Under the pieces are notes generated by a model. That model saw only the letters and a list, made by a program, of their open reading frames with translations, did not search any database and was not told where the DNA came from. The position numbers were made by a program, and so were the translations under genes. This document shows, piece after piece, positions 13,757 to 19,033 of a stretch of DNA of 29,249 bases. This stretch comes from a virus: positions 1-29,249 of the IMG/VR virus record IMGVR_UViG_3300030329_002712; one strand, written 5' to 3'. Position 1 is the first letter of the stretch. Each line of letters opens with the position of its first letter.

Positions 13757-13919
13757 CCTAAAATCGCAAAAATCGACCCTCTAGGATGCCCACACACGCG
13801 CAAGTCGATACCCCGCTGGTAGGTAAGACCCTAGAAAAATAGTGACGCTGTAGGAGCGAAAAATCGATGGGCAATCTTTCAGGCCTTGTTTTTATTGAAC
13901 ATTTTAAAGGTGAATTGCT

Positions 13920-14036
13920 ATGCCAGAAGTACGAACAAAATCAGGAAAAGTTAAACACTATCCCTACACCAAAAAAGGAAAGGCAGCGGCAAGAGCCGCC
14001 CGCCGTAGAGCTAATGCTAGAAAAAAACGAAAGTGA
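13920..14036 (+). CDS. Tiny Lys/Arg-rich phage protein
   Basis: 38 residues, beginning MPEVRTKSGKVKHYPYTKKG and continuing as an Ala/Arg/Lys helix ending NARKKRK. A strong ribosome site AAAGGTG lies seven bases before the ATG. More than 40 percent of residues are Lys/Arg. Very short proteins with the pattern M-P-x-V-x-x-x-x-x-x-Y-P-Y-T-K-x-G-x-x-A-A occur in many phages in my recollection, usually unannotated because of length. The lack of acidic residues after position 3 suggests binding to DNA, RNA or membranes. It overlaps the zinc-ribbon gene by 23 bases in another frame. Confidence 0.7.
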   Translation: MPEVRTKSGKVKHYPYTKKGKAAARAARRRANARKKRK

Positions 14037-14160
14037 ACGCTGTGTAAATTGCGGCTGCACCAAACCGAAAGTCTGGGTTCATGGTCACTATCAGTGCGCT
14101 GACTGTAAATGCGTCACAGATGGCGACTGTTGCCAGGGTGAAAGCGAATCGGAAAAATGA
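14014..14160 (+). CDS. Small zinc-ribbon protein
   Basis: 48 residues from the ATG at 14014. Two Cys pairs, C-V-N-C-G-C and C-A-D-C-K-C, lie about 15 residues apart, followed by a D-C-C near the end; this is a probable zinc ribbon. The frame stays open upstream to an ATG at 13867 with AGGAG ten bases before it, which would give 97 residues. That extension would be a translation of the tiny basic gene in another frame and looks low-complexity, so the shorter start is preferred. The stop codon TGA is also the first three bases of the 13-bp attP arm motif. Confidence 0.55.
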   Translation: MLEKNESERCVNCGCTKPKVWVHGHYQCADCKCVTDGDCCQGESESEK

Positions 14161-14191
14161 CCGTCAGGTTTTCTTGTAAATTGTGGATTTG

Positions 14192-14211
14192 CGTTTACAA
14201 AAAGTTTACAA
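14192..14211 (+). repeat. attP arm-type site, left copy
   Basis: CGTTTACAAAAAGTTTACAA, two GTTTACAA units eleven bases apart. Identical to 14444-14463; a related reverse copy lies at 26561-26579. Confidence 0.7.
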
Positions 14212-14328
14212 CCCTTTAAAGCCTTTCATATCCTATGAAAGCATGTTATATCCCTTGGTGACCCACTAAGTGATTGGCATGATTATAAGTTATTGATTTA
14301 TATGAAAGAATTTTTTGGCGGCGTCTCA

Positions 14329-14373
14329 CTCATAACCTGAAGGTCGTAGGTTCAAATCCTACCCCCGCAACCA
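14329..14373 (+). other. attP core: 3' half of initiator tRNA-Met
   Basis: Starting in the anticodon loop (CTCATAA, anticodon CAT at 14331-14333), the sequence continues as the 3' anticodon stem CCTGA, variable loop, T-arm GTAGG-TTCAAAT-CCTAC, acceptor strand CCCCGCA, discriminator A and CCA. The last acceptor base is A, where a C1-A72 mismatch marks initiator tRNAs. The matching 5' half is absent: the bases upstream of the loop do not pair with CCTGA and no acceptor 5' strand is present. Integration here would rebuild the host tRNA 3' end, including CCA. This is not a functional tRNA gene by itself. Confidence 0.85.
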
Positions 14374-14401
14374 TTTAATTAATTATATATATCAATAATT
14401 T

Positions 14402-14431
14402 AGCCGTCCCTACGGGGGCGGCTTTTTTTTT
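14402..14431 (+). terminator. Rho-independent terminator after the att core
   Basis: Nine-pair stem (AGCCGTCCC with GGGGCGGCT, one T-G wobble) closed by a C(TACG)G tetraloop of the exceptionally stable UNCG class, followed by nine Ts. It lies 29 bases after the tRNA CCA end and may have been captured from the host tRNA locus, or it stops late transcription before the integrase operon. Confidence 0.85.
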
Positions 14432-14443
14432 GTTTTTAGCTCT

Positions 14444-14463
14444 CGTTTACAAAAAGTTTACAA
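14444..14463 (+). repeat. attP arm-type site, right copy
   Basis: Exact direct copy of 14192-14211. A further half site GTTTACAA lies at 14495-14502, three bases before the inverted 13-bp motif. Confidence 0.7.
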
Positions 14464-14526
14464 GTCTAAGTGCGAAAGTGCCAATTTTTGAAAAGTTTAC
14501 AAAATAACCTGACGGTCAAATAATTA

Positions 14527-14563: not shown

Positions 14564-14590
14564 TGAGAGAAACAAAGGAGAGAGAAAATG
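14564..14590 (+). repeat. Leader / ribosome-site cassette, copy 1
   Basis: 27 bases ending in the start ATG and containing AAAGGAGAGAG. The identical 27 bases precede the gene at 14915; shorter copies end at 15078 (14 bases) and 15339 (20 bases). The repeat provides a strong Shine-Dalgarno at the same spacing each time. Confidence 0.8.
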
Positions 14591-14890: not shown

Positions 14891-14917
14891 TGAGAGAAAC
14901 AAAGGAGAGAGAAAATG
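14891..14917 (+). repeat. Leader / ribosome-site cassette, copy 2
   Basis: Exact 27-base copy of 14564-14590, again ending at an ATG. The surrounding coding sequences are unrelated, so the leader was duplicated on its own or the genes were exchanged around it. Confidence 0.8.
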
Positions 14918-15664: not shown

Positions 15665-15949
15665 ATGACTAAAATTAGACCAATCGTAAGAGCCGCATAC
15701 AAAGTCGATGAACTTCTCTATCAGTTTTATGACATCGACATTCCAGATGGTTACTTAGAAACAGCGTCAATCGAAGAAGTTAATGAAAAATACAACGACT
15801 CTTATTTAGTGGGCGAGGCAAAGAACCGGCTTTCGATAGTTCAAGATCAACTAGACTCCATTTCTAAAGAAGGTTCGCCCGAAGATTGGAAAGTTTTTAA
15901 TCGTGATAAGCGTCAACTTACCTCGTTCATCAACAAGTGGGGGGAGTGA
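15665..15949 (+). CDS. Small hypothetical protein upstream of integrase
   Basis: 94 residues from ATG 15665, which follows GGGGGAG; an upstream in-frame GTG lies in the previous gene. It is a helical, acidic protein (VDELLYQFYDIDIPDGYLE, EVNEKYNDSYLVGEAKNRL, QDQLDSIS), ending FNRDKRQLTSFINKWGE. Its stop overlaps the integrase start (TGATG). No family is recognised. Tight coupling to int suggests co-expression with recombination functions. Confidence 0.65.
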   Translation: MTKIRPIVRAAYKVDELLYQFYDIDIPDGYLETASIEEVNEKYNDSYLVGEAKNRLSIVQDQLDSISKEGSPEDWKVFNRDKRQLTSFINKWGE

Positions 15950-17205
15950 TGAAAGTTAGAGAGAATTTCAACAAACGCGGCAAGCTGCTTCATTTGACGG
16001 CAGACTGCCGCCCGCACGGGAGCCCGAAACGCGTCGCTAAATGTGACGGTTGTCACTGCAAAAAAGACAACTTCAAAACGAAGTGCAAGGCGCAGATGGA
16101 AGCGGAAAAAATCCTTCAGCAAGTTCGTCGCAGCGTCGAGGACACGGGGTCATTCAATGATCCTAGCAAAACGCCCATATTTCATTGCGAACAGAAAACA
16201 GCGACGACAGATGAAAACGATAACATTCGCTGTTGCGCCGTCCATCAATATTTGGAATTCGAGCAAGGCCGTATGGCGATTGGGTATCTAGGCCGTGGGC
16301 ATTTTGACAACAAAGTAACTGCACTTAATCATTTCGCCAAAATGAAAAGCTGGTTGCACGGCAAAACGTTCGCTGAAACCAAGATTGGTGATTTTGAAAC
16401 GGCGAAGATGGAACAGCATATTATTCACAAACGTTTCATGCTTGAAAAATCACCAACAACGGCATCCAAAAAAATCACCATCTTGCAGTCGTTTTGTAAG
16501 TGGGCGGTGAAGCAAGGGTATTTAAAAAGCAACCCATTGGGTGCGGAGAATATCGAATTGCCGCCCAGCGCAAAAAGGAGCAAGCGCATCGTGCGGCTCT
16601 CAAGAGAGATCGTTGATAAGATCATCAAGCATGCGGAGCCCGGTTGGCAACTGAAGATTAAGTTCGCCGCTCAAACCGGGTTACGTGCATCGGAGCAATG
16701 GGTGTTAGAATGGGACGACATCGATTTCAAAACCAATCATGTCCATGTTCGCCGCACTCGTAAAAAGGATAAAACCATCGGTGATCCGAAAACGGAATAC
16801 GGCATTAGGCGTTTGCCCATCGGTCCCGACATGGCAAGAGAATTAAAAGAGTGGAAATTGAAACAACCAGTTCAACAACGTGTAAGCTGGCGAACAAACA
16901 ATTTAGTGTTTCCGAATGCTATCGGCGGCATCCAAGACCAAGACAATGCGCTGAAGCGTCGTCTGTACCCGGCGTGTAAGGCGGCTGGTGTAGATGCGAC
17001 GCATATCGATTGGCATAGTTTGCGTCACTTCTATGCAAGCGTTTTAATCTTCAATACAAAGCTTCCATTCGGAACAATTGCAAAACGAATGGGGCATCAC
17101 GACTCGCATTTTACGTGGAAACAATACGGCATTTGGTGGGAAGAAGGCCGTAACGATGACGTTGATGAAGGCGTGGAAACGGAAAATGCGTTTCAGGTTT
17201 TGTAG
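15949..17205 (+). CDS. int: Tyrosine-type site-specific integrase
   Basis: 418 residues; ATG 15949 is preferred because GGGGGAG lies just upstream. All catalytic residues of the tyrosine recombinase family are present: Arg246 (TGLRASE), Lys281 (DPKTEYGIR), His356-x-x-Arg359 (WHSLRHFYAS), His383 (KRMGHHDSHFTW) and the nucleophile Tyr393 (KQYGIWW). A SAM-like core-binding domain spans about residues 90-205. The N terminus is unusual: a Cys-rich segment (C20, C32, C35, C37, C46) that may bind zinc and the arm sites. The enzyme should recombine the tRNA-type attP at 14.3 kb. No AP2-like arm domain was recognised. Genes on both sides share its strand. Confidence 0.95.
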   Translation: MKVRENFNKRGKLLHLTADCRPHGSPKRVAKCDGCHCKKDNFKTKCKAQMEAEKILQQVRRSVEDTGSFNDPSKTPIFHCEQKTATTDENDNIRCCAVHQYLEFEQGRMAIGYLGRGHFDNKVTALNHFAKMKSWLHGKTFAETKIGDFETAKMEQHIIHKRFMLEKSPTTASKKITILQSFCKWAVKQGYLKSNPLGAENIELPPSAKRSKRIVRLSREIVDKIIKHAEPGWQLKIKFAAQTGLRASEQWVLEWDDIDFKTNHVHVRRTRKKDKTIGDPKTEYGIRRLPIGPDMARELKEWKLKQPVQQRVSWRTNNLVFPNAIGGIQDQDNALKRRLYPACKAAGVDATHIDWHSLRHFYASVLIFNTKLPFGTIAKRMGHHDSHFTWKQYGIWWEEGRNDDVDEGVETENAFQVL

Positions 17206-18708: not shown

Positions 18709-18846
18709 ATGGGATTCTTTAAAAGCACCCTTGAATTTCTAACCCTTCTTATTTTCATTGTCGCCGTTTTTATCGGCATGGAACTTCTGTGCATAGCTAA
18801 CGACGCGTGTTACGCGTCCTTGACGCGGCCATTTATCAATGAGTGA
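18709..18846 (+). CDS. Small single-TM membrane protein
   Basis: 45 residues with GGAG eight bases before the ATG. It starts MGFFKSTLEFLTLLIFIVAVFIGMELL; most of this is one TM helix. A short Cys-containing tail follows (CIANDACYASLTRPFINE). It is the first gene after the probable early promoter and overlaps the excisionase-like gene by 8 bases. No family is recognised. Early membrane peptides in phages often act in exclusion or in host takeover, but nothing here proves that. Confidence 0.6.
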   Translation: MGFFKSTLEFLTLLIFIVAVFIGMELLCIANDACYASLTRPFINE

Positions 18847-19033
18847 AGCAGCGTTGTTGACCGTCGATGAGGCGGCAAAAGAAATATTTACGGATGGCAA
18901 GACGCCAACGAACCGCAAGCGCATGTATAAGCTCATACACAGCGGTCAAATCGAATCGCTACAATGTGCAGAGCGGGGGCATCACTTAATTCCACGTCGC
19001 GCAATCGCCAAGCTTCGAGGCGACGATGAGTAA
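18839..19033 (+). CDS. Excisionase-like helix-turn-helix protein
   Basis: 64 residues. The pattern LLTVDEAAKEIFTDGKTPTNRKRMYKLIHSGQIESLQ, then HHLIPRRAIAKLR, matches the MerR-like winged HTH of phage excisionases and HTH_17 DNA-binding proteins: a first helix with E-A-A, a recognition part ending Y-K-L-I-x-x-G-x-I and the wing with I-P-R-x-A-I. Such proteins bend DNA at attP to direct excision or act as small regulators. It is 3.2 kb from attP, on the lytic side of the repressor, which suits an early excision function. Confidence 0.7.
   Translation: MSEAALLTVDEAAKEIFTDGKTPTNRKRMYKLIHSGQIESLQCAERGHHLIPRRAIAKLRGDDE

Follow-up and report, generated by a model that had tools for sequence, protein, structure and literature searches.

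We found that the region between the lysozyme gene and the integrase gene of a temperate phage is an attP site with a tRNA-fMet core, and that its two outer edges carry mirror-image copies of part of that core, which in related phages tend to match whichever tRNA the site targets. The DNA analysed (the window) was a 29,249-base IMG/VR virus record (IMGVR_UViG_3300030329_002712), in which a 361-base region lies between a lysozyme gene followed by a small cysteine-rich ORF and a run of small ORFs leading to a lambda-type tyrosine integrase gene 1.4 kb downstream. The features of the region are listed in Table 1. The first-pass annotation had described an attP with the 3' 45 bases of an initiator tRNA, inverted 13-bp motifs at the edges and identical doubled sites on both sides, and this description was confirmed letter for letter. 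In contrast, it had treated the mirror motif as symmetry neater than that of lambda, whereas we found that the motif copies the target's own recognition sequence and changes with it.

Table 1. Features of the attP region and associated genes (positions in the window)
Position	Strand	Feature	Basis
14158..14170	-	Left outer mirror element, 13 bp (TGACCGTCAGGTT); holds a reverse copy (14159-14170) of the core's anticodon 3' stem plus variable loop	Exact inverse of 14506-14518; 1 mismatch of 12 to the core
14174..14180	-	Outermost left arm-type site TTGTAAA (inverted)	Sequence; three bases from the left mirror element
14192..14211	+	Left doubled arm-type site (CGTTTACAAAAAGTTTACAA; two GTTTACAA, 11-bp pitch)	Identical to 14444-14463
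14286..14298	-	IHF consensus site, left of the core	Exact WATCAANNNNTTR on the minus strand
14329..14373	+	attP core: 3' half of tRNA-fMet, anticodon loop to CCA	Sequence; same 45-mer in at least 119 viral contigs and in 21 of 190 alphaproteobacterial genomes
14390..14402	+	IHF consensus site, right of the core	Exact WATCAANNNNTTR
14402..14423	+	Terminator-like hairpin followed by a T run; inferred to end transcription of the rebuilt tRNA gene	T run in a similar place in 17 of 20 outward-copy attPs listed
14444..14463	+	Right doubled arm-type site	Identical to 14192-14211
14495..14502	+	Outermost right arm-type site GTTTACAA (TTTACAA at 14496); starts 11 bp before the right outer copy	Sequence; TTTACAA three bases from the right mirror element
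14506..14518	+	Right outer mirror element; 12-mer copy of the core's anticodon 3' stem plus variable loop (14506-14517)	Exact inverse of 14158-14170; 1 mismatch of 12 to the core
15937..17205	+	Tyrosine integrase	PF00589 (E 2e-16); phrog_1; predicted fold matches Tn1549 and lambda integrases
18839..19033	+	64-aa helix-turn-helix protein, weak candidate excisionase (role inferred)	HTH_17 at E 0.0011, below the curated cut-off

To determine whether the symmetry of the region could be due to chance, we compared left-right matches with those obtained in 300 dinucleotide shuffles. The best inverted match scored 17 against a maximum of 12 in the shuffles, while the best direct match scored 20 against a maximum of 13, and chance symmetry was rejected. 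ARAGORN found no complete tRNA in the window. Inspection of the edge motif showed that AACCTGACGGTC, present in the right edge and as its reverse complement in the left edge, differs by one base from AACCTGAAGGTC, which comprises the last two anticodon-loop bases, the 3' anticodon stem and the variable loop of the core. In lambda terms this would correspond to a core-type half-site, and the two copies point outward, in the same relative orientation as the two halves of attB.

To evaluate if the outer copies follow the target, we collected attPs associated with relatives of the integrase. A search of the viral contigs with the single protein gave no direct relatives, and as one alignment had no stretch conserved enough to search, a smaller alignment was used. 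The attPs recovered had cores that were 3' halves of tRNA-fMet, -Arg, -Lys, -Thr and -Glu, according to our reading of the anticodons. After removing 92 near-duplicates, 30 rows with short flanks and 30 with complete tRNAs, 100 attPs were kept, of which 47 had an integrase of the window's group, 23 belonged to a second group and 30 to neither. In the 47 attPs, mismatches to the own core over both arms summed to 280, against 343.7±10.3 when cores were permuted (minimum 302, 0 of 20,000 permutations as low). A total of 6 or fewer mismatches out of 24 was observed in 26 of 47 attPs and 4 or fewer in 17 of 47; in an earlier set of 88 attPs, totals of 6 or less had a shuffle p of 0.013 or less. Since the attPs share ancestry, which neither shuffles nor permutations take into account, these values overstate independence.

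Individual attPs (denoted by L numbers) agreed with this result, although not all of them did. At the same positions, L260 has a Lys core (AATCAGTGGGTC) with arms GACCCACTGAAT and AATCAGTGGGTC, while L281 has an Arg core (AATCCGTAGGTC) with arms GACCCACGGAAT and AATCCGTAGGTC, and in L218, whose Arg core has an unusual variable loop, the arms carry that unusual loop too. The letters of the arm-type sites differed between phages, while the copies followed the core. Of 13 non-fMet attPs, the own core fitted best or tied best among ten tRNA words in 9; in L244 and L254 a different Arg word fitted better, and L279 and L288 carried Lys-like arms under a Thr and an Arg core, respectively. In addition, L262 has a Lys core with an Arg-like right copy. 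The arms of L288 and L262 are as expected if the target changed recently and the copies lag. Of the 47 attPs, 21 had more than 6 mismatches; 4 of these carried inward-facing copies instead, and several (L045, L064, L086, L087 and L267) had neither. That relatives in the same integrase clade use other tRNA genes refutes an exclusive fMet target for the family, but not the attP reading of this locus.

On an integrase tree, 18 of 19 outward-copy rows lay within one supported group of 30 rows that holds the window, while a nested subgroup (L251, L276, L290 and L076) carried own-core copies facing inward, at about −135 and +139 in L276 and L251. Non-fMet rows appeared at four separate places, although this is our reading of a quick tree with long branches. 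Both the tree and the IHF counts given below rest on the earlier set of 88 attPs, from which L244, L248, L260, L262, L263 and L281 had been wrongly excluded by a looser rule for complete tRNAs. The shorter word GTCAGG was also enriched in the arms of 63 attPs (left 20 against 2.6 shuffled, right 27 against 2.4). Many of those integrases form another group, with direct rather than mirror copies next to the arm sites, and the attPs seen with that group all used tRNA-fMet. In this second group (L024, L042, L053, L059, L078, L104 and others), direct copies of the core half-site TCGTCAGG stand beside the doubled arm sites, and L104 repeats CGTCAGGCTCATC in both arms.

We then examined the remaining elements of the site. 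Exact matches to what is probably the IHF consensus flank the core in inverted orientation, and over 88 attPs the right site was exact in 46 (0.32 expected from shuffles, 0 in the opposite orientation) and the left in 21 (0.12 expected). Their positions fell at 49-51, 57-61 and 69 to the right and at −32 to −34, −43 to −45 and −52 to the left, in steps of about one helical turn. The attP contains six TTTACAA sites, three per arm, and in related phages the arm-type words often keep an 11-bp pitch when doubled. The right copy started 9-13 bp after an arm-type 7-mer in 15 of 26 attPs with a good right copy. The predicted model of the integrase (mean pLDDT 78) showed a small N-terminal unit of three strands plus a helix, with moderate confidence in that part (block pLDDT about 48-78), followed by a helical domain and a catalytic domain. 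Foldseek matched the model to Tn1549 and lambda integrases, and a profile of the clade also found lambda Int among solved structures.

To look for evidence of integration, we searched bacterial genomes. In one chromosome (genome G210), a complete tRNA-fMet (825118) and a half copy (858817) bound a 33.7-kb island, with the same doubled arm word at both inner ends and an integrase at one end. An exact outer copy sits at −169, between the doubled arm site and the start of that integrase, while the other end has no copy. This integrase is only distantly related (48 bits against the clade profile). The left-copy pattern was found in 1 of 385 genomes, this case only, and the right-copy pattern in 0 of 385. 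No close prophages were found in Alphaproteobacteria (0 of 385 genomes at E 1e-70), 44 loci on genome contigs with 26-38% identical integrases showed no own-core copy at the 7 tRNAs examined, and the exact 45-mer had no megablast match in the INPHARED phages. The number of viral contigs holding the 45-mer indicates that integration into tRNA-fMet is common, and the start-tRNA target is not exceptional. Interestingly, one alphaproteobacterial genome (G147, loci L452-L457) holds six exact copies of the 45-mer, two in complete tRNA-fMet genes and four as half copies, suggesting several elements in start-tRNA genes.

As controls, the same type of scan was applied to the attPs of P22, 186, P4 and HP1, and no arm likeness to the core was observed at p 0.05 in any of 16 comparisons (lowest 0.07, HP1), while the window was at the floor of the test on both sides. 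The site resembles lambda attP in having arm-type and core-type sites, IHF sites on both sides of the core and an integrase with a predicted N-terminal arm-binding domain plus a catalytic domain, but differs in its tRNA core, the near-symmetric doubled arm sites and the extra mirror pair, core-type sites being described only at the crossover in the account of lambda that we used (PMC4880445). Phage 186 has a truncated tRNA-Ile as core, IHF footprints on both sides and three arm-type sites to the left and two to the right, while P22 has a tRNA 3' fragment and P4 an annotated core with flanking arm repeats, each with a tyrosine integrase gene beside it; none of the three carries a significant own-core copy in either arm. 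HP1 has mirror-image arm repeats at the ends of attP, and its integrase may have type I (core-like) sites away from the crossover; it is the likeliest precedent. In the open-access literature searched, where older integrase papers were sparsely covered, we found no description of copies in attP arms that track the target.

Taken as a whole, the evidence supports, with good confidence, an attP whose lambda-type integrase inserts the phage into the 3' half of the host tRNA-fMet gene and rebuilds that gene up to CCA, with a hairpin terminator behind it, and whose outer mirror elements are extra core-type half-sites written in the target's own sequence, like the two halves of attB pulled more than 300 bp apart. 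By inference from lambda, IHF would fold both arms back over the core. Binding of the outer elements by the integrase is inferred from sequence alone, although we consider it likely. In lambda only two of the four Int bridges form in attP before synapsis, and the capture of naked attB has been called a long-standing conundrum (PMC4880445). The likeliest role of the mirror elements, which we propose only tentatively, is that two integrases held by arm-type sites rest their catalytic domains on these half-sites and hand over to attB when it arrives, so that the pair acts as a built-in stand-in for attB. A more speculative and rather doubtful possibility is that a near-complete four-integrase complex is assembled on this split stand-in before the chromosome is met, the real attB then displacing it. 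As integration moves the two half-sites to opposite ends of the prophage, the stand-in would exist only in attP and would give the reaction direction, target switching would require the core and both half-sites to change, and lagging copies would record recent switches. A site family of this kind makes a stand-in model directly testable by mutation, and gives a sequence-only readout of an integrase's core specificity and of recent changes of target, useful for host assignment of uncultured phages and for understanding how integrases change target.

The main alternative, which we consider unlikely, is that the outer copies are operators bound by the core-binding domain of the integrase to repress its own gene and the genes before it, as in integrases that regulate themselves from att sites; tight regulation of an integrase gene has been described for KplE1. 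A promoter-like pair of hexamers overlaps the right outer arm site and copy (14496-14524), and the single copy in G210, just upstream of the int start, suits an operator better. However, the promoter match is weak (5 found, 2.6±1.6 expected), many members have a second copy in mirror orientation on the far arm, away from int, and in the window int starts 1.4 kb downstream with small ORFs between. That the copies are relics of earlier att sites or of recombination at arm sequences is very unlikely: the few members with copies fitting another tRNA better, such as L288 and L262, could be read in this way, but the mirror orientation, the similar distances (left copy mostly −157 to −180, right mostly +129 to +178) and the helical spacing to arm-type sites are found across divergent integrases, and relics would decay rather than track the core. 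A site for another protein, such as an excisionase, a phage repressor or a host factor, with a chance likeness to the core is the least likely, even though integration sites generally carry excisionase sites and a helix-turn-helix protein is encoded in the window, since the motif changes with the tRNA target and a separate protein would not need to follow the integrase core.

Other sequences around these sites were also noted. Three integrase relatives (L205, L206 and L207) have upstream regions with paired IHF-like words and arm repeats but no recognisable tRNA 3' end. In the window, a small ORF (13867-14160) whose product has CxxC motifs and the segment HGHYQCADCK..TDGDCCQG ends at the left edge of attP, and a similar product is encoded at the same place in the relative L213 (about 1210-1340). 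Finally, an identical 26-base leader (gagagaaacaaaggagagagaaaatg) ending in ATG stands before two small ORFs after attP (14565-14590 and 14892-14917), and similar leaders occur before ORFs in relatives.
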